Assembly: GCA_023512435.1 (NCBI GenBank)
Contig: JAILZP010000002.1
Span: 1-64,000 of the forward strand
Length of the DNA stretch: 64,000 nucleotides
Origin: Peptococcaceae bacterium
GTDB lineage: Bacteria; Bacillota; Desulfotomaculia; Desulfotomaculales; Desulfocucumaceae
Direction: 5' to 3'
In this document: piece after piece, positions 7,350 to 22,739 of the stretch
Layout: each line of letters begins with the position of its first letter
Numbering within the stretch: position 1 is the stretch's first letter
The notes under the pieces: model-generated
What the model saw: only the letters and a program-made list of their open reading frames with translations
Database searches by the model: none
What the model was told of the DNA's origin: nothing
Position numbers and translations under genes: made by a program

Positions 7350-7934
7350 ATGTTCGGAACCCGGATAGTTATAGCAGAAACCGATGCCGCGTATCGCCGG
7401 AAATTAAAAGAGGCCTTCCGCCACGCCGATTACCTGGTGGTGGGAGAGGCCGCGGACGCCAGGAGCGCGCTCCAGATCATCTTCCAGACCGAGCCCCGGG
7501 TGGTGGTCATGGACCCGTATCTCCCGGGCGGCGAAGGGATTGACCTGACCGGGATAATAGACGAGCACCGGGTGGCGCCGGTGGTGGCCATTGTCTCCGG
7601 CGCCCAGGGCGAAATCGAAGACTACGCCCGCCTTCCGGGGGTGTACGGAGTCCTGCTGAAGCCCCTGCAGGCGGGGACGGTGCAGCCGGTGATCGAGTCG
7701 GCCCTGGCCAATTTCGACCGGGCCATGAAGCTGGAAAAGGAACTGAAGGACCTGCGCCGGGAACTGGAAAACCGGAAGATCGTGGAGATGGCCAAGGGGC
7801 TCCTGATGGAGAGAAAAAAGATCACCGAAAGGGAAGCGTACAGGCACCTGCAGAAGATCAGCATGGACAGGTGCATTCCCCTGGTCAGGGTGGCAAAAAA
7901 CGTTATCACGCACTACCGGCAGAACAGGGACTGA
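7350..7934 (+). CDS. Response regulator with ANTAR RNA-binding domain (NasR/NitR-like), copy 1
   Basis: 194 residues. N-terminal receiver domain (about 1-120) with phospho-acceptor Asp in VVVMDPYLPG, Ser in VSGAQ and Lys in LLKP; the acidic pocket reads AETD. A coiled-coil linker (KELKDLRRELENRK) leads to a C-terminal ANTAR domain (about 138-192, MAKGLLMERKKITEREAYRHLQK). ANTAR proteins bind RNA hairpins with six-base loops and block terminators. No histidine kinase is adjacent. It lies directly upstream of the ANTAR-type leader of the first glnA-like gene, which argues for a role in nitrogen assimilation. Confidence 0.9.
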   Translation: MFGTRIVIAETDAAYRRKLKEAFRHADYLVVGEAADARSALQIIFQTEPRVVVMDPYLPGGEGIDLTGIIDEHRVAPVVAIVSGAQGEIEDYARLPGVYGVLLKPLQAGTVQPVIESALANFDRAMKLEKELKDLRRELENRKIVEMAKGLLMERKKITEREAYRHLQKISMDRCIPLVRVAKNVITHYRQNRD

Positions 7935-7978: not shown

Positions 7979-8006
7979 TTGATTTTCCCGGGGCGGGTGG
8001 TATACT
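7979..8006 (+). promoter_or_regulatory. Promoter of the first glnA-like gene
   Basis: TTGATT, 16-nt spacer, TATACT. The expected start near 8013 places the hairpin and terminator of the leader just downstream. Confidence 0.5.
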
Positions 8007-8026: not shown

Positions 8027-8086
8027 CAGGGCAACGAGGTCCTGTCCGGGCTTCCGCGGGGAAGTCCGGGCGGGGCTTTTTGTTTT
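8027..8086 (+). promoter_or_regulatory. ANTAR-type antitermination leader of glnA-like gene 1
   Basis: A 6-bp stem CAGGGC/GTCCTG (8027-8032, 8039-8044, one G-U pair) closes the loop AACGAG, with A at position 1 and G at position 4 as ANTAR targets require. Its 3' arm is the beginning of the 5' arm of a strong hairpin (8039-8055 with 8060-8076) ending in TTTTTGTTTTT. The two structures exclude each other, the known ANTAR antiterminator logic. I found no clear first hairpin (P1) upstream. Confidence 0.65.
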
Positions 8087-8106
8087 TCGGAGGTTAACCG
8101 GCACAT

Positions 8107-9435
8107 ATGAAGGCGTTCAGTAAAGAAGACGTTCTGGAACTGGTGAATGAACAGAATGTGAAGTTTATCCGGCTGCAGTTCACCAGCATCCAGGGATTCC
8201 TGAAGAATATCGCGGTTACGGTGGAGGAGCTGCATTCCGCCCTGGAAGGCCGGGTCATGTTCGACAGTTCGGTGATCGAGGGGTTTGTCGGAAACAGGGA
8301 GTCGGACATCTACCTGGTGCCGGATCCGGCCACCTTCGTGGTTTTTCCCTGGCGGCCCAGGGAGGGCGCGGTGGCCCGGCTGATCTGCGACAGCAGGCAT
8401 CCCGGCGGAAAACCCTTTGACGGCTGCCCCCGGACGGCCCTGAAAAGGGTGCTGGAAAAATACGCCGGCGCAGGGCTGGAGGTCAGGGTCGGCGCCGAAA
8501 TAGAGTTTTACCTTTTCCACGCCGATGACCAGGGACGGCCCACCGCCAGCACTCACGACCTGGCCGGGTATTGCGACCTCACCCCGGTGGACAGGGGCGA
8601 GAACGCCCGGCGGGACATGGTGCTGACCCTTCAGGAGATGGGCTTCGACGTGGCCACTTCCTTTCACGAGATCGGGCCGGGCCAGCACGAGATCTATCTG
8701 AAGGACGACCCGGCGCTGGCCATGGCCGACAATATCGCCACATTCAAGTTCGTGGTCAGGACCATCGCCCAGCGGCACGGGCTGCACGCCTCCTTCATGC
8801 CCCGTCCCCTGGACGGCCACAACGGATCGGGCCTGAAACTGCACATTTCACTGTTCGGGGGCGGCCGGAACATTTTTGACGGCCCCGGGGAAAAGTACGG
8901 CCTGGGCAAGGCGGCCGGCGGCTTTATCGCGGGGATCCTGGATCACGCCGGGGCGATCACGGCGGTGGCCAACCCCATTGTCAACAGCTACAAGCGGCTG
9001 GTTGCCAGGGACCCGGCCCCCGTCCTGGCGGGCTGGTCCTGCGGCAACAGGAACACCATGATCAGGGTGCCCGAAGAAAGGGGGGAGGGGACCAGGATAG
9101 TGCTGAGGAGTCCTGACCCCTCCTGCAATCCTTACCTTGCCCTGGCGGCGTGCCTGGCGGCGGGCCTGGACGGGATAAACCGGAAAGCTTCCATGCCCGG
9201 CCCCATGGACGAGGTGTGTCTGGAAAACGGGGTCACAAGGGAAATGGCAAGGAAGGCGGGGCTTCCCCGCAACCTGGAGAGTGCGCTGCTGGCCCTGGCG
9301 GCGGACCCGGTGGTCCGGGACGCCCTGGGGGAGAGGATTTTCAACCGCTTCACCCGGTTTAAGGAGGATGAGTGGGAGAGGTACCAGTCCACGGTGCACA
9401 GGTGGGAGGTGGAGGAATACCTGACCAGTTATTAG
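8107..9435 (+). CDS. Glutamine synthetase-like protein lacking key active-site residues
   Basis: 442 residues, full length for type I GS, and clearly homologous throughout. Against canonical GS (Salmonella numbering by motif alignment) Glu129/131 (GAEIEF), Glu212 (FHE) and Glu220 (GQHE) are kept. His269 is Lys (GSGLKLH instead of GSGMHCH), the flap Glu327 is Pro (ARDPAP instead of PGYEAP) and Glu357 is Val (TRIVLR instead of TRxELR); the DGSS motif is also altered (FDSSVIEGF). Loss of two n2-metal ligands and the flap glutamate predicts no normal GS activity. It may be a regulatory or sensing paralogue, or use another substrate. An ANTAR-type leader precedes it; ATG 8107 follows SD GGAGG. Confidence 0.85.
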   Translation: MKAFSKEDVLELVNEQNVKFIRLQFTSIQGFLKNIAVTVEELHSALEGRVMFDSSVIEGFVGNRESDIYLVPDPATFVVFPWRPREGAVARLICDSRHPGGKPFDGCPRTALKRVLEKYAGAGLEVRVGAEIEFYLFHADDQGRPTASTHDLAGYCDLTPVDRGENARRDMVLTLQEMGFDVATSFHEIGPGQHEIYLKDDPALAMADNIATFKFVVRTIAQRHGLHASFMPRPLDGHNGSGLKLHISLFGGGRNIFDGPGEKYGLGKAAGGFIAGILDHAGAITAVANPIVNSYKRLVARDPAPVLAGWSCGNRNTMIRVPEERGEGTRIVLRSPDPSCNPYLALAACLAAGLDGINRKASMPGPMDEVCLENGVTREMARKAGLPRNLESALLALAADPVVRDALGERIFNRFTRFKEDEWERYQSTVHRWEVEEYLTSY

Positions 9436-9611
9436 GAGTTGGGAATTGGGAATTAGGAATTGGGAATTAGGGGTTGGGAATTGGGGATGGTCATAAGTAT
9501 TAAGTTTCTAGTTTCAATTACTTATAGCTTCAAACTTACAACTTAAAACTCAAAACTTAAAACTAACTGATAACGGCTGATAGCTAATAGCTAATAGCTA
9601 ATAGCTAATAG
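9436..9611 (+). repeat. Three adjacent heptad tandem-repeat arrays
   Basis: The intergenic region holds degenerate 7-bp repeats of three kinds: TTGGGAA (9438-9490), AACTTAA (about 9533-9566) and AGCTAAT (about 9580-9611). They are far more AT-rich than the flanking genes. Confidence 0.85.
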
Positions 9612-9685
9612 GGACCCGCCAGATATAAAAGGGCTCCCGGCAATTAAAAAAACTTTATGTATTATTTTGCAGGAGGATGGAACAG

Positions 9686-11266
9686 ATGAGCTTCAGCAAG
9701 GGAATCAACGCCACAGCGGCAACACTGACCCGTACCCGTACAGGGGAGAGCAGGTGTCCTTACAGCGGAATGTGCGTGACCTGCCTGGACGGATGCCCCG
9801 GCCTGTGCGAAGTGGGCAAATCGGCGGTGCGCGGCAAGGAGGTCCTGTACCCCCAGCCCTTCGGTAAAATCACCGCCGCTTCGGAGAAGGACTACCCGGT
9901 GGACTACTCTCACTTCAATATCATGGGGACCGCCGTGGGCGCCGTGGGCATCGATCCGGACCCGGACAAGGCCATCTTCCCCGCGGTGAACATCTCCACC
10001 GCCGTGGGCGCCAACGGGGAAATAAAGATGGATTTCCCCGCCGTGGTGGCCGCCATGGGTTCCACCGACGTGGCCGCCAACAACTGGGCGCACCTGGCCG
10101 CCGGGGTTGCGGTTTCAGGCTGCGGCATTGCCATCGGTGAGAATGTCTGCGCCATGGACCCCAACGTGGAGATCAAGAACGGCAGGGTTGTCCACTCGCC
10201 GAATCTGGCCCGCCGGGTCAAGGACTTCCAGGACTGGTACAACGGCAAGGGATTTATCGCCGTGCAGGCCAACGTGGAGGACACCAGCCTGGGGGTCCAG
10301 GAGTACGCCATTGAAAAGCTGGGCGTGGAGGCCGTGGAGCTGAAATGGGGCCAGGGGGCGAAGGACATCGGCGGTGAAGTGAAGCTGAACACCCTGGAAA
10401 GGGCCCTGCAGCTCAAGTCCCGGGGCTATATAGTGCTGCCCGACCCCGAGAACCCCAAGGTCCAGGAAGCCTACAAGGCGGGCGCCTTCGGCGAGTTCGA
10501 GCGGCATTCCCGGATCGGCATGGTGGAGTATGAATCCTTCATGAAAAGGGTGGAGGAACTGCGCCGGGCCGGCGCCAAGTACGTGTTCCTCAAAACCGGA
10601 GCCTACCGTCCGGCCGATCTGGCCAGGGCGGTGAAGTACGCCTCGGACGCCCGGCTGGACCTGCTTACCGTGGACGGCGCCGGCGGCGGCACCGGTATGA
10701 GCCCCTGGAGGATGATGAACGAGTGGGGGATTCCCACGGTCTATATCCAGGCCCTGCTGGTCAAGTACCTGGACCGGCTGGCCGCCAGGGGAGCCTATGT
10801 ACCGCCGGTGGCCATAGCCGGCGGGCTGGCCCTGGAGGACCACATGTTCAAGGGGTTTGCCCTGGGCGCCCCCTACATCAAGTGCATCGGCATGGCCCGT
10901 TCCGCCCTGGCCGCCGCCATGGTGGGCAAGACCGTGGGCGAGGCCGTCAAGGCCGGCAAGGTTCCCAACGAGTACAAGAAATACGGCGAAAACCTGGAGC
11001 AGGTGTTCGTGGCGGCCAGCGAGCTCAGGGAGAAACTGGGCGCGGACGAATTCAACCGCCTGCCGGTGGGGGCCGTCGGGGTCTACTCTTATTTCGAGCG
11101 CCTGGCCCAGGGACTGCGCCAGTTTATGTGCGGCGCCCGCAAGTTCGCCCTGCAGTACATCACCAGGGACGATATCGTGGCCCTGACCAGGGAGGCCGCC
11201 GAGGTCACCGGCATCAAGTACGTGATGGAGGCCGACGCCGACGAGGTGGAACAAATTTTGGGATAG
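9686..11266 (+). CDS. Stand-alone FMN-binding glutamate synthase domain protein with N-terminal Cys motif
   Basis: 526 residues matching the central and FMN-binding part of GltB (alpha/beta barrel; TVDGAGGGTGMSPW, PPVAIAGGLALEDH). It lacks the N-terminal amidotransferase domain, the C-terminal GXGXG domain and the 3Fe-4S motif of full GltB. Instead the N-terminus has a cysteine cluster CPYSGMCVTCLDGCPGLC (about residues 24-41) that could hold an iron-sulfur cluster. Known in clostridia as an FMN-binding glutamate synthase family protein; reaction unproven. ATG 9686 is 9 nt after SD AGGAGG (9671-9676); ATG 9677 directly abuts it. It lies between a glnA-like gene and an ANTAR regulator, so nitrogen metabolism is likely. 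Confidence 0.85.
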   Translation: MSFSKGINATAATLTRTRTGESRCPYSGMCVTCLDGCPGLCEVGKSAVRGKEVLYPQPFGKITAASEKDYPVDYSHFNIMGTAVGAVGIDPDPDKAIFPAVNISTAVGANGEIKMDFPAVVAAMGSTDVAANNWAHLAAGVAVSGCGIAIGENVCAMDPNVEIKNGRVVHSPNLARRVKDFQDWYNGKGFIAVQANVEDTSLGVQEYAIEKLGVEAVELKWGQGAKDIGGEVKLNTLERALQLKSRGYIVLPDPENPKVQEAYKAGAFGEFERHSRIGMVEYESFMKRVEELRRAGAKYVFLKTGAYRPADLARAVKYASDARLDLLTVDGAGGGTGMSPWRMMNEWGIPTVYIQALLVKYLDRLAARGAYVPPVAIAGGLALEDHMFKGFALGAPYIKCIGMARSALAAAMVGKTVGEAVKAGKVPNEYKKYGENLEQVFVAASELREKLGADEFNRLPVGAVGVYSYFERLAQGLRQFMCGARKFALQYITRDDIVALTREAAEVTGIKYVMEADADEVEQILG

Positions 11267-11309: not shown

Positions 11310-11332
11310 GATCTCATTAAAACGGATATGAT

Positions 11333-11416
11333 AGATACAAGGGTGTATCTGATTGAATAGGCAAAGATGCCCTCGCAGGTTTTTATGCCTTAAGCCTGTG
11401 AAGGGCATTTTCTCTT
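11333..11416 (+). promoter_or_regulatory. Two-hairpin ANTAR antitermination leader (best example in window)
   Basis: P1: AGATAC/GTATCT stem (11333-11338, 11345-11350) with loop AAGGGT. P2: GGC/GCC (11360-11362, 11369-11371) with loop AAAGAT. Both loops have A1 and G4. P2 overlaps the 5' arm of a terminator (11367-11379 pairing with 11395-11408, then TTTCTCTT). This is the complete ANTAR target architecture and lies just before an ANTAR gene, predicting autoregulation. Confidence 0.8.
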
Positions 11417-11440
11417 ACCATTATCTTGGAGGAAAGCTCC

Positions 11441-12022
11441 ATGGCTGAGCAGAGGATTGTGTTGGTGGACAGCGACCCCAACTGGAGAAAAAGTCTCAAA
11501 TCGATGCTCACCAAGCTGGGCTACTGGGTTGTGGGAGAAAGCGGGGACGGGCTGAACGCCCTGAAGATGGTAAGGTCCCGGCAGCCCGATCTGGTTATCA
11601 TAGACGCCGGGGTTTCGGGAATGGACGGCTTCGAGGTGGCCAAAATAATACACGAGGACAAACTGGCCCCGGTGATCGTGCTTGCCTCGGCCCATTCCCA
11701 GGCCATGATTGAAAAAGCCAAGGAGGCCCGGGTATCGGCCCTTCTGACCAAGCCGGTGGACGAGACGGGCATATTGCCGGCCATTGAACTGGCCCTGGCC
11801 AATTACGGCGAGATAGTAAAGCTGGAGAATAAGGTCAAGGAGCTAAAGGAAATCCTGGAAACAAGGAAGCTTTTGGAGAGGGCCAAGGGCATACTCATGG
11901 AGACCATGGGTCTCACCGAGGCCGAGGCGTTCCGGAGAATGCAGAAGCAGAGCATGGATAAGCGGATATCCATGCGCCAGGTGGCCGAGGCGGTGATACT
12001 GGCCCATAATCTGAAGGGTTAG
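11441..12022 (+). CDS. Response regulator with ANTAR RNA-binding domain, copy 2
   Basis: 193 residues. Receiver domain with DSD acidic pocket, phospho-Asp in VIIDAGVSGMDG, Ser in LASAHS and Lys in LLTKPV, so it is probably phosphorylatable. Coiled-coil linker, then ANTAR domain (about 138-190, RAKGILMETMGLTEAEAFRRMQKQS). ATG 11441 is 7 nt after SD GGAGGA (11428-11433). It sits in the middle of the three glutamine synthetase genes and has its own two-hairpin leader. NitR-type ANTAR proteins next to glnA are known in clostridia. No partner kinase is visible. Confidence 0.92.
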   Translation: MAEQRIVLVDSDPNWRKSLKSMLTKLGYWVVGESGDGLNALKMVRSRQPDLVIIDAGVSGMDGFEVAKIIHEDKLAPVIVLASAHSQAMIEKAKEARVSALLTKPVDETGILPAIELALANYGEIVKLENKVKELKEILETRKLLERAKGILMETMGLTEAEAFRRMQKQSMDKRISMRQVAEAVILAHNLKG

Positions 12023-12148
12023 GGATTGGGGATTGGGAGTTGGGAATTGGGAAACAAGCAAATAGCGGCTAGCGGCTAGCTACTAGCGGCTAGCGCCAGG
12101 GACCAGAACCATAAGCTGTCAGCTGGAAGCTATAAGCTGGCAGCTAGT
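12023..12148 (+). repeat. Heptad tandem-repeat arrays
   Basis: Degenerate 7-bp units: (GGGATTG/GGGAATT)n at 12025-12050, (GCGGCTA)n at about 12063-12096 and AGCTnnn repeated at 12112-12148. Confidence 0.8.
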
Positions 12149-12207
12149 CTGACCGGAAAGTCAAGCTAAAAAGGAATATGGGCGGTATGATGGCGTGCTG
12201 TCGAGCC

Positions 12208-12270
12208 GGGCAAAGGTGCCCTATGCAGGAGTGTAGCTTCTCAACTCCTGTATAGGGCGCCTTTTATTTT
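12208..12270 (+). promoter_or_regulatory. ANTAR-type antitermination leader of glnA-2
   Basis: GGGC/GCCC stem (12208-12211, 12218-12221) with loop AAAGGT (A1, G4). It overlaps the 5' arm of a 17-bp terminator stem (12215-12231 with 12245-12261) followed by TTTTATTTT. A possible -10 TATGAT is at 12186-12191; P1 was not identified. Confidence 0.65.
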
Positions 12271-12299: not shown

Positions 12300-13631
12300 G
12301 TGGACGCTGCGAAAAAAAATGAAATCCTGGCCAGGGCCAGGGAAGCCCAGGTTAAGTTCATCCGCCTGCAGTTCACGGACATCCTGGGCGTATTGAAGAA
12401 TGTGGCCATTACCGTGGAACAGCTGGAGAAAGCGCTTGACGGGGAGTTGATGTTTGACGGATCATCCATCGAGGGTTTCGTGCGCATTGAGGAATCGGAT
12501 ATGTACCTGCGCCCCGATCCCGACACCTTCGTGGTGTTTCCCTGGCGGCCCAGGGAGGGAGCGGTGGCCAGGCTGATGTGCGACGTGTACAACCCGGACG
12601 GAACGCCGTTTGAAGGCTGTCCCCGCAACGCCCTGAAAAGGGTCCTGGCGGAAGCCGCAGCCATGGGGTATACCATGAAAGTGGGCCCCGAGGCCGAATT
12701 CTTCCTGTTCCAGGTGGACGAAAACGGCCGGCCCACATTGAAGACGCACGACAATGCCGGTTATTTCGATCTCACCCCGGTGGACATGGGGGAGAACGCC
12801 CGCCGGTCCATGGTCCTGACCCTGGAAGAAATGGGCTTTGAAATCGAGGCCTCGCACCACGAGGTGGCTCCCGGCCAGCACGAAATAGACTTCAAGTATT
12901 CAGACGCCCTGGACGTGGCCGACAAGGTAATGACTTTCAAGTTCGTGGTGCGCACCATCGCCCAGCGGCACGGCCTGCACGCCACCTTTATGCCCAAGCC
13001 GGTTTTCGGCATCAACGGCAGCGGCATGCACTGCCACCAGTCGCTGTTCGAGGGCGGCAAAAACATTTTTGACGACCCCAGGAGCCCGGACGGACTCAGC
13101 GATACGGCCAAATACTACATCGGCGGCCTGATGAAGCACGCCAGGGCCTTCGCGGCCGTTACCAACCCCACCGTCAACTCGTACAAGCGCCTGGTTCCGG
13201 GTTACGAAGCCCCGGTGTACATCGCCTGGTCCAACCGCAACCGGAGCCCGCTGATCCGGGTGCCGGCCAAGCGGGGGCCTTCCACCAGGCTGGAACTGAG
13301 GAACCCCGACCCGTCCTGCAACCCGTACCTTGCCTTCGCGGCCATGCTCTCGGCCGGGCTGGACGGGATCAGGAACAAGATCCAGCCCCCTCCGCCCTGC
13401 GAGAGGAATATATACCACATGGACGCCGCCGACCGGGCCGAGCTGGGTATCAGCAGCCTTCCCGCCAGCCTGTGGGAAGCCCTGCAGGAGCTTTCCGCCG
13501 ACGAAGTGATTAAATCGGCCCTGGGCCCGCACATCTACGAAAAGTTTGTCGAGGCCAAGACCAGGGAATGGGACTCCTTCAGGGTGCAGGTGCATCCCTG
13601 GGAAGTGGAAGAATACCTTGCCAAGTTTTAG
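12300..13631 (+). CDS. glnA: Glutamine synthetase type I (canonical residues present), copy 2
   Basis: 443 residues; ATP-dependent condensation of ammonia and glutamate to glutamine. All checked catalytic motifs are intact: [45 protein letters not shown] and [11 protein letters not shown]. The length fits the GSI-alpha group of Gram-positives; no adenylylation-type C-terminus is apparent. GTG start 12300 follows SD AAGGTGG. Control by the ANTAR leader just upstream is inferred. Its own terminator lies at 13715-13745. Confidence 0.95.
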
Positions 13632-13944: not shown

Positions 13945-15276
13945 GTGGATCGACTGACCAAAGACGATGTGCGCAGTTTGGCCAGAGAAATGGGGGTAAA
14001 GTTTGTACGCCTGCAGTTCACGGACATCTTCGGCGTGCTGAAGAACGTGGCCATCACCGTTGAACAGCTGGACAAGGCCCTTGAGGGGGAGCTGATGTTT
14101 GACGGTTCGTCCATCGAGGGTTTTGTACGCATTGAAGAATCAGACATGTATCTCAGGCCGGACCCGTCCACCTTCGTGGTCTTTCCCTGGAAGCCAAGGG
14201 ACGGCGCGGTGGCCAGGCTGATCTGCGATATATACAACTCGGACGGAACCCCCTTCATCGGGGATCCCCGCTATGTGCTGAAAAAAGTTACGGCCGAGGC
14301 CAGAGAACTCGGCTTCACCATGAACGTAGGGCCGGAGGCGGAATTCTTTCTTTTCCACGTGGACAGCGAAGGCAAGCCCACCACCATCACCCACGACCGG
14401 GCGGGATATTTCGACCTCACTCCCGTGGACCTGGGGGAAAACGCCCGCAGGGACATGGTGCTGACCCTTGAGCAGATGGGGTTTGAGATCGAGGCCTCGC
14501 ACCACGAGGTGGCCCCCGGCCAGCATGAAATAGATTTTAAATACTCCGAAGCCGTGGACATCGCGGATAAAGTGGTGACCTTCAAGTTCGTGGTGCGCAC
14601 CATCGCCCAGCGGCACGGCCTGCACGCCACCTTCATGCCCAAGCCCATTTTCGGCATCGCCGGTTCCGGAATGCACCTGAACCAGTCCCTGATGCACAAC
14701 GGAAGCAACGCCTTTTACAACCCGGACGCCCCCAACCAGCTCAGTGAAGTGGCCCTGCACTACATCGGCGGCCTGATCGAACACATCGGGGCGATCACGG
14801 CCGTGACCAATCCCACGGTCAACTCATACAAGAGGCTGGTGTCGGGCTACGAGGCGCCGGTTTACGTGGCCTGGTCGAACCGGAACAGGAGCCCGCTGAT
14901 CAGGGTTCCGGCCAAAAGGGGCATGTCCACCCGGATCGAGCTGCGCAGCCCCGATCCTTCCTGCAATCCGTACCTCGCCCTGGCCGTCTGCCTTAAGGCC
15001 GGGCTGGACGGGATAAAGAGGAAGATCCAGCCTCCGCCTCCCTGCGACCGGAATATATACGAGATGACCGCCGCCGAGCGCGAAGAACTGGGTATCGGCA
15101 GCCTTCCGGGCAGCCTGGAAGAAGCGCTGCGGGAACTGGAAAAGGACGGGGTGATTGCCGGGGCCCTGGGCCCCCATGTGATGCAAAGGTATATGGAGGC
15201 CAAAAGGATTGAGTGGGACAGGTACCGTGTCCAGGTCCACCCTTGGGAGATTGAAGAATACCTGACCAAGTTTTAG
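13945..15276 (+). CDS. glnA: Glutamine synthetase type I (canonical residues present), copy 3
   Basis: 443 residues. Motifs [46 protein letters not shown] and [11 protein letters not shown] are intact; Asn in place of the second His of GMHxH is normal for Gram-positive GS. GTG 13945 aligns with the start of copy 2; TTG 13939, 5 nt after SD GGAGAGG, is an alternative. The reading frame is open upstream to 13783, but that part is leader and terminator sequence, not gene. gltB follows 161 nt later behind another ANTAR-type leader. Confidence 0.95.
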
Positions 15277-15290
15277 GCATAGCTGAATAT

Positions 15291-15385
15291 TCCGGCCCGA
15301 CGATGTGCCGGACTGAACGAGGGCAACGATGCTCGCCGGGAAGACATGGCTGGTTTTGACCATGATCTTGCGGCGGGCTTTTTTT
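15291..15385 (+). promoter_or_regulatory. ANTAR-type antitermination leader of gltB
   Basis: P2-like hairpin GGGC/GCTC (15321-15324, 15331-15334, one G-U pair) has loop AACGAT (A1, G4), nearly identical to the hairpin before glnA-like gene 1. An upstream hairpin TCCGGCCC/GTGCCGGA (15291-15298, 15305-15312, one mismatch) has loop GACGAT (G4 only). P2 overlaps the terminator arm GCTCGCCG (15331-15338), which pairs with CGGCGGGC (15371-15378), then seven T. Confidence 0.65.
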
Positions 15386-15437
15386 ATCCCTTTCCGTCCC
15401 CGCCGCCGGGGGGGAACGGGACCGGAGGTGGAACTGA

Positions 15438-18400
15438 ATGGGAATCAGCGGATTACCCCCAAAACAGGGTCTTTACGACCCGCGTTTCGAGCACGATGCC
15501 TGTGGCATAGGGTTTGTGGCCGATATCAGGGGTAGAAAGTCCAACCGCATTGTGCGCCAGGCCCTTGACATCCTTGTGAATCTCGACCACCGCGGCGCCA
15601 GGGGGGCCGAGGCAGATACCGGCGACGGGGCCGGGATACTCATGCAGATCCCGCATGCCTTCTTTGAAAAGAATTGCGCAAAGGCGGGCATTCACCTTCC
15701 CCCGGCCGGCGAATACGGCGTGGGTATGCTTTTCCTGCCCCGTGACGATTCCCGGCGGGAAACATGCGAGCGAGCCGTGGAAAGGGTTGTCCGGGAGGAA
15801 GGCCTGCCCTTTTTGGGGTGGCGGACCGTTCCCGTGAACGATTCCGGCCTCGGCAAGACGGCCAGGCAGGCCCGGCCCTTTATCCGGCAGGTGTTTGTCG
15901 GCAGGAATCCTGAGATTAAGGATGAAATGGCCTTCGAGCGCAAACTTTACGTCATCCGCAAACGCCTGGAGAAGGAGGCGAGGCGGTTGTGCATCCTGGA
16001 AGGGGAACTGATCACCTTCTATTTTGCCAGCCTGTCCTCCCGCACCGTTGTTTACAAGGGGATGCTCACCCCGGAACAGTTGAGCGGTTTCTACCTTGAC
16101 TTGAACGACCTGGACATTGAAACCGCCATCGCCCTGGTTCACTCCAGGTTCAGCACCAACACCTTTCCCAGCTGGGAAAGGGCCCACCCGTACCGTTACA
16201 TCATCCATAACGGGGAGATCAACACCCTGCGCGGGAACATCAACTGGATGCACGCCCGCCAGTCGATGTTCCAGTCGGACCTGTTCGGGGAGGACATGGC
16301 CAAAATACTCCCGGTGATTGACCAGGACACCAGCGATTCGGGGATGTTTGACAACTGCATGGAATTCCTGCACCTGGCCGGCCGCTCCCTGCCCCACGTG
16401 GCCATGATGATGATCCCGGAACCCTGGTCGAACCATGAAAGCATGAGCGATGAAAAGAAAGCGTTTTACCAGTACCACAGCTGCCTGATGGAGCCCTGGG
16501 ACGGCCCCGCGGCCATTGCCTTCACAGACGGGAAAATAGTCGGCGCGGTGCTGGACCGGAACGGTCTTCGTCCCTCCCGTTACTACGTGACCAGGGACGG
16601 CCTGATCGTTTTGGCCTCGGAAGTGGGGGTACTGGACATTCCCCCGGAAAACGTGCTGATAAAGGACCGGCTTCGCCCGGGGCGCATGCTGCTGGTGGAC
16701 ACCGTGGAGGGCAGGATTGTTTCCGATGAAGAGCTGAAACACCGCATCGCCACCGATCGCCCCTACCGCCGTTGGCTGGACGAACACCTGGTCAGGCTGG
16801 AGGACCTGCCGCCCGTCCCCGGGGTTCCGGAAAACGGCCGTGAGACCCTGACCCTGCGGCAATCTGTCTTCGGCTACACTTTTGAAGACCTGACCAAAAT
16901 TCTGGAGCCCATGGCCAGAAACGGGGTGGAACCGGTGGGTTCCATGGGCAACGACGCCTCGCTGGCCGTGCTGTCGGAGAGGCCCCAGCTTCTGTACAAT
17001 TATTTTAAGCAGCTGTTTGCCCAGGTCACCAACCCTCCCATAGACGCCATAAGGGAAGAAATTATCGTTTCCTGGGAAACCTCCATCGGTCCCGAAAAAA
17101 ACCTGATCCGGCCGGGTCCGGACAGCTGCCGCCAGATCACCCTGAGGACGCCAATCCTGAGCAACGAAGAACTGGCCAAAATCCGGCACATAGACCGGGA
17201 AGGCTTTAAATCGGCCACCCTGCCCATCTTGTTTAACGCGGCTGAAGGAAGCCGGGGGCTGGAGAAGGCGCTGGAGGATCTTTTCGGTGAAGCTGACCGG
17301 GCCATCGCCGGAGGAAGCAACCTGTTGATCTTGTCGGACCGCGGGGTGTGCGCCGAAAAAGCGGCCATTCCGGCCCTGCTGGCCGTGTCCGGCCTCCATC
17401 ACCACCTGATCCGGGAAGGCACCAGGACCCGGGTGGGCATCCTGCTGGAGTCCGGGGAGCCCCGGGAGGTTCACCACTTCGCGGTATTAATCGGCTACGG
17501 CGCCAGCGCCGTCAATCCCTACCTGGCCTTTGAGTCAATCGAAGGCATGATCGGGAGCGGGATGATCACCGGCCTGACTTATGAAAAGGCGGTGCGGAAC
17601 TACATCAAGGCGGCCACCAAGGGCGTGGTCAAGGTCATGTCCAAGATCGGCATTTCAGCCGTCCAGAGCTACCACGGGGCCCAGATTTTCGAGGCCGTCG
17701 GGATCAACCGGGCGGTTATCGACAGGTACTTCACCTGGACCCCTTCCCGGGTGGGGGGGATCGGCCTTCCCGAAATCGCCCGGGAGGCCGGACTGCGGCA
17801 CCGGCGGGCCTTTTCCAGCCGGGCGGGCCGAGAAAAAGTGCTGGACTCCGGTTCCGCCTACCAGTGGCGGCAGGACGGCGAGAAGCACCTGTACAACCCG
17901 CAAACCATCGTCATGTTGCAGCAGGCCTGCCGGCAGAACGACTACAACCTTTTTAAACAGTATTCCGCCTTGCTTAATGAAACGCAAAAAAAGGTCACGT
18001 TGCGCGGGCTCTTCACCTTTAAGTCAAACCGGCCCCCGGTTCCCCTGGAGGAGGTGGAACCGGTGGAATCCATCTGCCGGCGCTTTAAGACCGGGGCGAT
18101 GTCCTTCGGTTCAATCAGCAAAGAGGCCCATGAAACCCTGGCCGTGGCCATGAACAGGATCGGCGGCAAGAGCAACACCGGCGAGGGCGGAGAAGATCCC
18201 GCCCGCTACATCCCGGACCCCAACGGCGATTCCCGCCGCAGCGCCATCAAGCAGGTGGCGTCGGGCAGGTTCGGCGTTACCAGCCATTACCTGGTCAATT
18301 CGGACGAGATCCAGATCAAGATGGCCCAGGGCGCAAAACCCGGTGAAGGGGGCCAGCTGCCGGGACAGAAGGTTTATCCCTGGATCGCAAAGGTCAGGGG

Positions 18401-20039
18401 CACCACGGCGGGCGTGGGGCTGATCTCCCCCCCTCCCCACCACGACATTTACTCCATTGAGGACCTGGCCGAGCTCATTTACGATCTGAAGAACGCCAAC
18501 CCGGGCGCCAGGATAAACGTCAAGCTGGTTTCCGAGGTGGGAGTGGGCACCATTGCGGCGGGTGTGGCCAAGGGGCGGGCCGATGTGGTGCTGATCAGCG
18601 GGTACGACGGCGGCACCGGGGCCGCTCCCCGCACAAGCATCAGCCACGCCGGCCTTCCATGGGAGCTGGGCGTGGCCGAAACCCACCAGACCCTGGTCCT
18701 GAACGACCTGCGGGACAGGATCGTGGTGGAAACCGACGGCAAGCTGATGACCGGCCGCGACGTGGTCATTGCGGCCCTTTTGGGCGCCGAGGAATACGGT
18801 TTTGCCACGGCTCCCCTGGTGGTTCTGGGCTGTGTCATGATGCGGGTGTGCAACCTGGATACCTGCCCCTGCGGCATAGCCACCCAGAACCCTGAACTGC
18901 GCAGGAATTTCAGGGGAGACCCCCAACACGTGGTCAACTTCATGACCTTTATCGCCCGGGAAGTGCGGGAGATAATGGCCCAGCTGGGCTTTCGCACCGT
19001 AAACGAAATGGTGGGCAGGACGGAAGTGCTGGAAGCGGACCCGGCCGCAGGACACTGGAAGGCCGGGGGACTGGACCTCTCCGCCCTCCTTCACCGGCCG
19101 GAAGTCCCCGAAAGCACCGGCAGGTACTGCCGGGTACAGCAAAATCACGGGCTGGAAAAAACCCTGGACCGGAAGGTGCTTTTGGAAATCTGCCGGCCGG
19201 CCCTGGAACGCAAAGAGCCGGTGGAAGCCAGGCTGCCGATCCGCAATACAAACCGGGCCGTGGGCACCATCCTGGGCCACGAGGTCACCAGGCTGCACGG
19301 CGGGGAAGGACTGCCCGAGGACACGATCCGCCTTTATTTCGAGGGCACCGCCGGGCAGAGTTTCGGCGCCTTCGTTCCCCGGGGGATGACCATGATCCTG
19401 GAAGGCGACGCCAACGACTACTTCGGCAAAGGCCTCTCCGGCGGCAAGCTGGTTGTTTTCCCGCCGGCCGGGTCCGCCTTTGTTCCGGAGGAGAACATCA
19501 TCGTGGGCAACGTGGCCTTCTACGGCGCGACCTCCGGCGAGGCATACGTCCGGGGCGTGGCCGGGGAGCGGTTCTGCGTCAGAAACAGCGGCGTGCGGGC
19601 GGTGGTGGAAGGCGTGGGCGACCACGGGTGCGAGTACATGACCGGGGGCCGGGTGGTGGTCCTGGGCCCCACCGGGAGAAACTTCGCGGCCGGCATGTCG
19701 GGCGGGATCGCCTACGTGCTGGACGAGGACGGGTCCTTCCCCGGGCGCTGCAACCCGGAGATGGTGATCCTGGAAAGGCTGGAAAAGGCCGGTGAAATGA
19801 ACGAAGTGCGAGAAATGATCGAAAGACACTTTTTCTACACGGGAAGCCGGCGGGCCCGGCAGGTTCTGGACAACTGGGCCGGGATGGCGCCGAAGTTCGT
19901 CCGGGTTGTTCCGAAGGACTACAAGCGCATGCTGGAGGCCATTGAGCGGGCGCATGAAACGGGCCTCAGCGGGGACGAAGCGATCATGGTGGCCTTCGAA
20001 GAGAACTTGAAAGACGTCTCCCGGATCAGCGGGAACTAG
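15438..20039 (+). CDS. gltB: Glutamate synthase large subunit
   Basis: 1533 residues, normal for GltB. Order of domains: class II glutamine amidotransferase (about 22-430, nucleophile Cys in HDACGIGF after a 21-residue propeptide), central domain, FMN-binding synthase domain (about 840-1210, with the 3Fe-4S motif [15 protein letters not shown]) and the C-terminal GXGXG beta-helix (about 1270-1500). It forms glutamate from 2-oxoglutarate and glutamine. SD GGAGGTGG precedes ATG 15438. gltD follows after 11 nt. The ANTAR-type leader upstream couples it to the GS genes. Confidence 0.97.
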
Positions 20040-20050
20040 GGGGGAATACC

Positions 20051-21535
20051 GTGGGTAAGCCAACCGGGTTCATGGAATATGAAAGGGAACTCCCTCAGGA
20101 ACGAAGTCCGCTGGAGCGGATCAGGGACTGGAACGAGTTTTACCGCCGCATGCCGGAGGAGGCGTTGAGGACTCAGGCGGCCCGCTGCATGAATTGCGGC
20201 GTGCCCTTCTGTCACAGCGGAATCGTGCTGAACGGGGCCGTCTCGGGCTGTCCCAACCACAACCTGGTTCCGGAGTGGAACGACCTGGTCTACCGGGGCT
20301 TGTGGAAAGAGGCCTTGAACCGCCTGATCAGGACCAACAACTTTCCGGAGTTCACCGGCCGGGTATGCCCCGCCCTTTGCGAGGGCGCCTGCGCCGCCGG
20401 TCTGGCCACGGCGCCGGTGACCGTAAAGAGCATCGAGCGGGCCATTATCGAAAAGGCCTACGAGGAGGGGTGGGTCGTTCCCAGGCCGCCGCTTGAACGC
20501 ACGGGCAAAAAGGTGGCCGTGGTGGGTTCAGGCCCGGCGGGCCTGGCCTGCGCCGACCAGCTCAACAGGGCCGGCCACCTGGTCACTGTTTTTGAGCGCG
20601 CGGACCGGATCGGCGGACTCCTGATGTACGGAATTCCCAACATGAAGCTGGACAAGGCGGTGGTCCGGCGGCGGGTGGACCTGATGGCGGCGGAGGGAGT
20701 GGTCTTCGTGACCGGCGTCGAAGTGGGCAGGGATTATCCCGCCGAAAAGCTCTTGCGGGAGTTCGACGCCGCGGTTCTCTGCTGCGGGGCGGCCAAGCCC
20801 CGGGACCTTCCCGTCGAAGGGCGCGGCCTGAAAGGAATCCATTTCGCCGTGGAATTCCTGGGCGCCAACACCAAGAGCCTTTTGGACGCGAACCTTGGGG
20901 ACGGAAACTTCATTTCCGCCCGGGGCAAGGACGTCATTGTCATCGGCGGCGGCGACACCGGCACCGACTGCGTGGGGACCTCCCTGCGCCACGGGTGCAG
21001 GAGTGTCAACCAGTTTGAAATTATGCCCAGGCCGCCCGCGGAACGCGGTCCCGGCAACCCCTGGCCGCAGTTTCCGAGGGTGTACAAAGTGGATTACGGC
21101 CAGGAGGAGGCGGCCGCCCTTTACGGGCCGGACCCGCGGCACTACTGCGTAACCGCCAAAAAATTCTCCGGCGACGACCGGGGTTGCGTGAAAGAAGTGC
21201 ACACGGTGGAGGTGGAGTGGGTGAGGGACGACCAGGGCCGCCTTTCGCCCAGGGAGGTCCCCGGCACCGGGAAAGTCTGGCCGGCGCAGATGGTGCTGCT
21301 GGCCATGGGATTCACGGGCCCGGAGGACAATCTTCCCGACCTGCTAGGGCTGGAACGCGATGAGCGCTCCAACGTGAAGGCCGGATACGGCAGGTTTGCC
21401 ACCAGCGTGAAGGGGGTTTTCGCCGCCGGGGACATGCGCCGGGGCCAGAGCCTGGTCATCTGGGCCATCAACGAGGGGCGGGGCGCGGCCCGGGAGTGCG
21501 ACCGCTACCTTATGGGATCCACAAGTTTGGATTAG
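20051..21535 (+). CDS. gltD: Glutamate synthase small subunit
   Basis: 494 residues. N-terminal twin 4Fe-4S adrenodoxin-reductase-type domain ([21 protein letters not shown]), FAD site [15 protein letters not shown] and NADPH site [13 protein letters not shown], ending in the typical [18 protein letters not shown]. It feeds electrons from NAD(P)H to GltB. GTG 20051 follows SD AGGGGGG, 11 nt after the gltB stop, so the two are cotranscribed. Confidence 0.96.
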
Positions 21536-21590: not shown

Positions 21591-21881
21591 TCCTTCCAAA
21601 CAATTTGAAAAGTTAAGGGAATGTAATAATACATTAATTAATTATAATATACAGAGTATTCCCCATAATGAGGGGTCATTCATGTGCGGATTTGCCTTTT
21701 TTACGCATAAATGGTAGACATAGTTAAAAGCAGATATTATAATAACCAATAGGTATTATAATCCTTTACCAGGCAAGGTGAAAACACAGTAAAGGAGGTG
21801 AACTTTGCTATAAAAATGCCCTGGTGGGCTAAAAATGGGATGCTGTTTTTTTTTACGAAAATAAACCGTGGAGTGATTATA
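21591..21881 (+). other. AT-rich upstream region of the C39-like gene
   Basis: No gene recognised. Several TATAAT-like sequences occur (for example near 21753-21761), as does a strong SD AAAGGAGGTGA ending near 21801. The nearest in-frame ATG (21816) is 15 nt away, so the SD may serve a leader or an N-terminally longer form of the next protein. Composition differs sharply from the flanking GC-rich genes. Confidence 0.4.
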
Positions 21882-22739
21882 ATGAAAAACGACAAAATAA
21901 AGTTATATTCCTTGTTAACTATTATGGTTTTTACTCTGTCTCTTTTGCTTTCGCAAGTTGTTTTTGCTGATAACGCAGGCTTAGGGCCAAATGATAAACA
22001 GAATATACTCGTATTGCCTGAAAGCAAAGAAGGAAAGGCCAAAAAACGCGAAATGGAACTCGACTCTCAAAAATTGATAGATGTTTATTACAATGTAAAA
22101 GAGGGCAAGGCCGAACCAGAAGATTATTGGAACTTATTGAATGAGTTTAAGAAAAAGTGGAAAACTTCAAAGTCAGAAATTAATAAAGACACCCAAAATG
22201 TTGGTATACTTACCGCTAAACAGCTATATGTGTCCGCTTATGAACAATTATATGGCAATTATTGCGGACCAGCATCCGCACAGCAATTTTTAGCCTACAA
22301 AGGTATATCAAGAAATCCCTATGATTTACGTCAATTAACCCAACCTAACCTCGCAGACGATCTTCACACAGACAGTTCTGGCACATCTTTCCCTGGATAC
22401 TGGACAGGTACATTACAAAACTGGACCAGCGGAATTGAGTGGGCATCTTTGTGGGCTCCTTCTGCATCCACACTTCTGGCAAAAACAAAAATTGACGTTG
22501 ATGCAAACTGGCCTTTGATTTATGACACACATATGAATAGCAAGAATGGCTATCTCCCTGGTTATAGTACTTATGATTTCTGGCATTATGTCACTGGTGC
22601 TGGTTACAACGATACATCAGGAAGTGAACAAATTTATTACGTTGATCCAAATAATTTTCGTCAAGGAACATTTGGTGGACATTGGGTTTCTTTAAGCTTA
22701 ATGACCAGTGTTTTAAAAGATAGAGGAATTATTTGGTAA
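21882..22739 (+). CDS. Secreted C39-like cysteine peptidase-fold protein
   Basis: 285 residues. Signal peptide (MKNDKIKLYSLL... to VVFADNAG), helical pro-region, then a papain-like C39 domain: active-site region YGNYCGPASAQQFLAYKG (Cys near residue 125) and HYVTGAGYND ... IYYVDPNN carrying the probable catalytic His and the DP motif of Peptidase_C39_2. ATG 21882 follows SD GTGGAG at 8 nt and gives a clean signal peptide; ATG 21816 would add 22 residues. The gene is AT-rich, unlike its neighbours, suggesting transfer. Substrate unknown; no bacteriocin or ABC exporter is adjacent. Confidence 0.72.
   Translation: MKNDKIKLYSLLTIMVFTLSLLLSQVVFADNAGLGPNDKQNILVLPESKEGKAKKREMELDSQKLIDVYYNVKEGKAEPEDYWNLLNEFKKKWKTSKSEINKDTQNVGILTAKQLYVSAYEQLYGNYCGPASAQQFLAYKGISRNPYDLRQLTQPNLADDLHTDSSGTSFPGYWTGTLQNWTSGIEWASLWAPSASTLLAKTKIDVDANWPLIYDTHMNSKNGYLPGYSTYDFWHYVTGAGYNDTSGSEQIYYVDPNNFRQGTFGGHWVSLSLMTSVLKDRGIIW

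Follow-up and report, generated by a model that had tools for sequence, protein, structure and literature searches.

The window, that is, the whole stretch of 64,000 nucleotides that was analysed, contains near its left end a cluster of glutamine synthetase (GS) and glutamate synthase genes together with two genes for ANTAR-domain proteins, all on the forward strand:

7350–7934, +: ANTAR1, a receiver and ANTAR-domain antiterminator of 194 aa (Pfam PF00072 and PF03861)
8107–9435, +: GS1, a predicted catalytically degenerate homologue of type I GS (GSI) with K244/P303/V332 for H269/E327/E357 and an apparently intact 2-oxoglutarate (2-OG) site
9677–11266, +: GltB2, an FMN-domain-only glutamate synthase homologue of 529 aa (Pfam PF01645)
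11426–12022, +: ANTAR2, a second receiver and ANTAR protein (Pfam)
12300–13631, +: GS2, a GS with all catalytic residues present in the alignment
13954–15276, +: GS3, a GS with all catalytic residues (ORF open from 13783, homology from about 13954)
15438–20039, +: GltB, glutamate synthase large subunit (named from sequence resemblance; conserved downstream in related clusters)
20051–21535, +: GltD, glutamate synthase small subunit (named from sequence resemblance)

The survey covered 113 genomes of the order, which are all those available for the class, and a draw of 348 from the phylum; it yielded about 110 neighbourhoods. Across the class the GS1 orthologues amount to 77 proteins which form one clade and share the gene order ANTAR, GS1, FMN-only glutamate synthase (GOGAT). 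In 71/76 loci the gene directly upstream of GS1 encodes an ANTAR protein, so that GS1 adjoins an ANTAR gene as the sensor of an AmiC–AmiR or NasS–NasT pair does, and GltB2 is directly downstream in 68/76; several loci lacking one or other neighbour are contig ends. After GltB2 the usual order in the class is ANTAR2, GS2, GS3 and GltB. A sequence-only reading of this DNA had placed GS1 beside an ANTAR regulator, and Pfam indeed finds both the receiver and the ANTAR domain in the neighbour. ANTAR1 and ANTAR2 are the only ANTAR proteins found in the source genome (88% complete). In GltB2 the Pfam match is confined to the FMN-binding region of the glutamate synthases, and no glutaminase domain was found. 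One family of the order has, in the very place of GltB2, a homologue only approximately 41% identical to that of the window (L094:6818–8470, L096:309–1961, L100:10383–12029, L101:7500–9155, L102:5945–7588 and L106:9718–11361).

GS1 is a GSI-alpha homologue of 442 aa, full length relative to the solved GSI enzymes (residues 2–442 on B. subtilis GS) and 58% identical to GS2. It possesses PF03951 (GS N-terminal) and PF00120 (GS C-terminal) domains, and its AlphaFold model (22-row alignment, mean pLDDT 80) matches a solved GS with a TM score of 0.92 in Foldseek. The protein passes the NCBI GlnA model TIGR00653 (436.6 bits versus a cut-off of 429.15), and automatic annotation would therefore name it glutamate-ammonia ligase. 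Since the standard model calls it a true GS, metabolic models and GS copy counts in this class are probably wrong.

The sequence-only reading described a full-length GSI homologue with H269K, E327P and E357V, the other two copies keeping all three residues, and the alignment agrees: these positions are K244 (codon 8836–8838), P303 (9013–9015) and V332 (9100–9102) in GS1, and H/E/E in both GS2 and GS3. Further changes in the window copy are S53V, G51S, F180C and Gly for B. subtilis Arg62. It retains E129, the n1 ligands E131, E212 and E220, the arginines R321, R339, R344 and R359, and D50. Two of the six metal ligands of a functional type I GS (E129/E131/E212/E220/H269/E357) are thus replaced, and its ammonium site (flap Glu327 and Asp50) keeps D50 next to E327P and S53V. 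The pair through which feedback-inhibited GS senses glutamine, Arg62 and the flap Glu, is represented by G62 and P303. Nor does GS1 have the residue pattern of a gamma-glutamyl-amine ligase, in which the metal ligands are kept and the ammonium site is opened, the n2 ligands being gone. Directly after the Tyr179 position lies Cys156 (codon 8572–8574), which is Cys in 74/75 GS1 proteins and 9/10 sister proteins, and Phe in 133/134 active copies; it might conceivably serve as a new nucleophile.

The losses extend through the clade. Among the n2 ligands E129 is retained in 52/75 members, H269 in 38/77 with varied replacements elsewhere, and E357 in 1/77, where the position is otherwise I (32), V (31), L (8), T (3) or A (2), so that V or I stands in 63/77 and the glutamate is lost in 76/77. 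At the E327 position 52/77 have Leu and 1/77 Glu. S53, E207 and Arg62 (present in 14/75, lost in 61/75) are likewise lost or variable, as are E220, S273 and R355 in some members. D50 is kept in 74/75, and E131, E212, R321, R339, R344 and R359 in nearly all; only 2/17 catalytic positions are invariant. It had been asked whether the K/P/V trio is conserved in an orthologous clade beside ANTAR genes. It is not, and was rejected as a signature: the exact trio is particular to the window copy, and the changes common to the clade are V/I for E357 and L for E327.

The most degraded member, encoded on the minus strand at L245:4813–6105 in genome G013, has lost the n1 ligands (E131D, E212G, E220R) as well as R339, R344, R355 and R359, and has Glu at the E357 position. 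Its reading frame is nevertheless intact, with the ANTAR gene on one side and GltB2 on the other; its assignment to the clade is by similarity and synteny, not by tree. Taken together, catalysis has very likely been lost within a conserved clade, judging from the residues at the active site, and the loss of both the n2 metal site and the ammonium site is a strong argument against glutamine synthesis by GS1.

The three trait columns (H269, E327, E357) were left out of a maximum-likelihood tree, which placed the 44 sampled GS1 proteins on one side of a branch with an SH-aLRT of 97. This branch joins, with support of 100, syntenic H-L-E (HLE) proteins of other classes in which E327 is lost and E357 kept. 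The minimum number of changes on the tree is one for E357, two for E327 and six for H269. On this tree the loss of E327 came before that of E357, which happened a single time, on the GS1 branch, and H269 was lost on several occasions. A wide homology search of genome contigs added three close orthologues and a partial copy from a member of the same genus. The remaining matches were distant, and the ten nearest among them (from actinobacteria and one Anaerolineae) have the ordinary H/E/E.

Could GS1 be a surplus copy which is losing its function and is kept by recency or operon position only? Its rate of evolution is roughly double that of GS2 and GS3, there is free variation at H269, a single truncated copy is known (L242) and the gene has been lost several times. 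Against this, pairwise dN/dS is 0.065–0.20 (0.01–0.11 for GS2/GS3), the reading frames are intact in nearly all members, 71/442 alignment columns are invariant, new residues are conserved, the proteins are monophyletic, and synteny holds class-wide. Constraint on GS1 is about twofold relaxed relative to GS2 and GS3, yet firm; the gene is under purifying selection. Of the three sites, at which random substitutions would have meant decay to the sequence-only reading, H269 has varied replacements, but E357 has become mostly V/I and E327 mostly L. Decay is largely refuted and we consider it very improbable. The truncated gene at L242:8507–9223 (genome G086), cut to about the C-terminal half and accompanied by intact ANTAR1, leader motif and GltB2, may be a pseudogene, or the product of a misassembly.

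A changed substrate was the alternative offered by the sequence-only reading, and one might picture a ligase whose ammonium pocket (V56, C156, L303, L307, V332) has been rebuilt for another amine. V56, C156, L307 and M318 are conserved clade-specific residues, and the gamma-glutamylamine synthetases GlnA4 and PauA7 also have lost flap E327 from a GSI homologue, with a nonpolar residue in its place [PMC6529630]. An enzymatic ancestor is possible too, the sister HLE proteins keeping all metal ligands with E327L. However, in GlnA4 and PauA7 the six metal ligands are all present, and D50 and Y179 are the residues lost [PMC6529630]; most GS1 proteins have D50 and Y179, and their losses fall on n2 ligands (E357 in 76/77, H269 in half, with varied replacements), and the L245 member has lost n1 and several substrate or phosphate arginines. 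A new acceptor is therefore the weaker reading of GS1, and we hold it to be quite unlikely. Seven of the sister proteins, from other classes of the phylum (L221:7259–8584, L224:7534–8865, L227:7337–8668, L228:7040–8515, L230:9636–10967, L231:2663–3994 and L235:4457–5782), have E327L with all six metal ligands, an ANTAR gene upstream and often GltB2 downstream; they are possibly an active intermediate form or ligases for a new substrate.

2-OG is the cell's signal of nitrogen shortage, being high when nitrogen is scarce. It activates two methanogen GSI-alpha enzymes, in which it is bound between subunits [PMC11957540, PMC10799026]. Its contacts are F24, R26, R87, R172', R173' and S189' in Methanosarcina mazei GlnA1 [PMC11957540] and F18', R20', R88', R174, R175 and S191 in M. 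thermolithotrophicus GS, where Val94 and the absence of Glu at position 34 leave room for the ligand [PMC10799026]. These positions, chosen from the published papers and not by screening for conserved columns, were mapped onto GS1 by subtracting 4 throughout from the M. mazei numbers, in agreement, at the level of coordinates only, with the phmmer alignments of M. mazei chains. The corresponding residues of GS1 are F20, R22, R83, R168, R169 and S185, with V89 and A36 at the permissive positions. None of the eight varies among the GS1 proteins that cover it (75 or 76), or in the ten HLE/GS4 proteins; in B. subtilis GS positions 20, 36 and 83 are occupied by Y, E and T.

Against the 71/442 invariant columns the hypergeometric P is 3e-7; it is 2.8e-6 among columns at least 70% conserved in active copies and 6e-4 among those at least 97% conserved (six of the eight positions), and 8/8 versus 2/17 catalytic positions gives a Fisher P of 4e-5. 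The columns are correlated by common ancestry and may have roles at the interface, and these values are therefore only guides. The 2-OG residues are conserved in most active copies as well, and part of their conservation in GS1 is accordingly inherited or maybe structural at the subunit interface. For A36 and R83, on the other hand, conservation among the active copies of this class is 71%, versus 100% in GS1. Only six columns are invariant in GS1 and below 90% in those copies, namely A36, R83, C107, N166, D170 and P290; two are thus 2-OG positions, and N166 corresponds to M. mazei D170, which contacts R87. The L245 protein keeps 8/8, a retention which is not significant alone (P = 0.24). The 2-OG pocket is likely retained, to judge by these residues.

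From the 2-OG site of the M. mazei enzyme the signal travels to the ATP pocket via F184, F202 and F204 [PMC11957540]. This relay is not preserved: the window copy has F180, L198 and D200 there and, among 76 members, Phe occupies the first position in 57, Leu (58) or Ile (18) the second in all 76, and Glu (54) or Asp (17) the third, which is acidic in 71. GS1 resembles the methanogen enzymes in its GSI-alpha fold, 2-OG contacts and permissive positions 36 and 89, but they are active enzymes whose active site is primed by 2-OG [PMC11957540, PMC10799026], whereas GS1 is without catalytic ligands and relay; its 2-OG input appears to be kept and its catalytic output cut. Since catalytic parts have been lost while the pocket is kept without exception, GS1 looks like an enzyme turned nitrogen sensor, a natural split, if so, of the two jobs of GSI-alpha in which allosteric 2-OG sensing is kept and catalysis dropped.

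The sequence-only reading had suggested glutamine or ATP as the ligand. Glutamine sensing of the B. subtilis type requires the flap Glu (Glu304) and Arg62 [PMC9249791, PMC11957540]; as both are lost, it was rejected for GS1, and the suggestion is probably wrong, the 2-OG site being the input that remains. ATP binding is undermined, as GS1 has lost the n2 site together with the Phe chain which primes the nucleotide pocket.

The same reading also gave GS1 the same kind of leader. Several such leaders were located:

7979–8006, +: candidate sigma-70-like promoter of the GS1 transcript, TTGATT-16-TATACT (consensus scan, 9/12 with TG)
8027–8044, +: ANTAR target hairpin of P2 type, cagggcAACGAGgtcctg, stem CAGGGC/GTCCTG and loop AACGAG (A1, G4)
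8036–8087, +: intrinsic terminator with T-tract before GS1 (fold z = -5.95)
11332–11373, +: ANTAR2 leader with P1 tagatacAAGGGTgtatctg and P2 GGCAAAGATGCC hairpins
12207–12266, +: GS2 leader, GGGCAAAGGTGCCC hairpin and overlapping terminator
15320–15386, +: GltB leader, GGGCAACGATGCTC hairpin and terminator

ANTAR targets carry a hexaloop with A1 and G4, and a switch between P2 and terminator has been published [PMC3369936]. The GS1 leader agrees with this form: the 5' arm of the terminator overlaps the A1/G4 hexaloop hairpin and the two structures are mutually exclusive. P2-type hairpins of this description do occur with terminators before GS1, ANTAR2, GS2 and GltB, and the shared kind of leader is real. 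The strict hairpin is present in 37/56 GS1 leaders versus 1.5 expected from mononucleotide shuffles, and a looser motif in 69/77 orthologue leaders; it is not enriched before ANTAR1 (3/70) and hardly before GltB2 (6/71). A P1 hairpin precedes the leader hairpin of GS1 in 1/69 cases, and both P1 and P2 stand before ANTAR2. Rfam gave no credible family match to the leaders.

Among ANTAR proteins upstream of GS1-type genes 33/79 have a receiver without the phospho-acceptor Asp (Glu in 23), as do 42/73 upstream of active copies (Glu in 33/73). The frequent absence of this Asp fits control of the ANTAR protein by a bound protein partner, although ANTAR1 of the window still has the Asp. Receivers with Glu for Asp before active GS genes, such as orthologues of 11426–12022, are possible pseudo-receivers.

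The identity of such a partner was approached by rate covariation, as partial distance correlations across 30 genomes. Given GS3, the correlation with GS1 is 0.65 for ANTAR2, 0.51 for GltB2, 0.38 for GS2 (P 0.002) and 0.20 for ANTAR1 (P 0.09, not significant). With all other genes controlled only ANTAR2 stays high (0.51). The coevolution expected of a sensor and its adjoining ANTAR protein is thus not seen with ANTAR1, which the mirror-tree does not support as the specific partner; the covariation is with ANTAR2, and if GS1 has an ANTAR partner, the hint is toward ANTAR2 at least as much as ANTAR1. Moreover, three genomes (G004, G005 and G098) have kept ANTAR1, the leader motif and GltB2 and lost GS1. 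The earlier suggestion that GS1 signals to the ANTAR proteins accordingly draws strength from synteny and the leader, and loses some through these three genomes and the covariation.

GltB2 might be the partner instead, GS1 serving as its 2-OG-responsive companion or as a subunit handling ammonia or glutamine. GltB2 has the FMN-binding region only, adjoins GS1 in most loci and covaries with it given GS3. This signal vanishes when ANTAR2 and GS2 are controlled (0.14, P 0.12), and either gene occurs apart from the other: GS1 has no downstream GltB2 at L209 and L210, and GltB2 is without GS1 at L212, L241 and L243. We regard this partnership as improbable, a shade more so than a new ligase.

The main rival is that GS1 is a non-catalytic regulatory subunit in mixed rings with GS2 and/or GS3. 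Its D50 loop, devoid of Arg62, would complete the active site of a neighbouring subunit, which would then escape glutamine feedback, and 2-OG bound to GS1 would promote assembly. GSI active sites do lie between subunits, the retention of D50 and the loss of Arg62 suit such a role, as does an intact 2-OG site, and the C-terminal interface residues H431, W433, E434, Y438 and L439 are kept in 75–76/77. The GS1–GS2 covariation given GS3 is also in its favour, but drops to 0.20 with other genes controlled; the rest of the D50 loop is remodelled (S53V, G51S), and the conserved neighbours of GS1 are the ANTAR gene and the FMN-GOGAT, not GS2. On balance we think mixed rings unlikely, though well worth keeping in mind.

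A regulatory pseudo-GS, as the sequence-only reading called it, fits one clade, intact reading frames, dN/dS and fixed neighbours better than decay or a changed ligase, and a regulatory role in nitrogen control is likely. That GS1 is a pseudo-GS which makes no glutamine, keeps its 2-OG pocket and acts as 2-OG sensor for the ANTAR-controlled nitrogen genes of the cluster has about an even chance of being right. We presume that GS1 would assemble as a GS-like oligomer, whose assembly or shape 2-OG would alter under nitrogen shortage. Contact would then transmit its state to an ANTAR protein, in the way that AmiC (amide) informs AmiR and NasS (nitrate) informs NasT, and the result would be read-through of the GS1, ANTAR2, GS2 and GltB leaders. 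The target could be either ANTAR protein, or mixed oligomers with GS2/GS3 instead; direct action on an ANTAR protein is plausible.

In those two systems the ANTAR protein is held, until the ligand appears, by a ligand-binding protein whose gene is next to its own [PMC3795266]. As at the GS1 locus, the sensor adjoins the ANTAR gene and the leader hairpin overlaps a terminator [PMC3795266, PMC3369936]; AmiC and NasS, unlike GS1, are relatives of the small-molecule-binding proteins of transporters. The feedback-inhibited GS of B. subtilis, acting on GlnR/TnrA, is likewise a GS-fold nitrogen sensor encoded by its regulator (glnRA) [PMC9249791], but it is active, senses glutamine via the two residues lost in GS1, and addresses DNA-binding regulators as opposed to the RNA-binding ANTAR proteins. 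Our literature search found no GS-fold partner of an ANTAR protein and, within the open-access literature (subscription papers lying outside the search), no paper on a bacterial pseudo-GS. Lengsin, the vertebrate lens GS homologue (PDB 2j9i), is a GSI-fold protein reported to be without GS activity; it differs from GS1 in being eukaryotic, distant (49.5 bits) and of the lens, with no link to nitrogen control.

Nitrogen sensing in bacteria with ANTAR-run nitrogen genes is largely open, and GS1 offers a candidate sensor, ligand and output. We tentatively put forward, while thinking it rather more apt to fail than to hold, that GS1 stands for a kind of nitrogen sensor not recognised in bacteria before: a dead GS which reads 2-OG and directly gates ANTAR antiterminators. 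If true, it would fill in this class of anaerobes the role that GlnR/TnrA and feedback-inhibited GS have in Bacillus.

A further paralogue, with Y/H, R/H and E/D at the three sites, is found at L101:15321–16658, L132:8077–9396 and L243:14168–15502; it adjoins another ANTAR gene and branches with the HLE proteins. In the window the gaps after GS1 (9436–9620) and ANTAR2 (12023–12180) are occupied by low-complexity intergenic repeats, GGGAATTGGGAATTAGG, with GCTAATA units, and downstream of gltD positions 21798–22739 specify a protein with a C39-like peptidase domain (PF13529).
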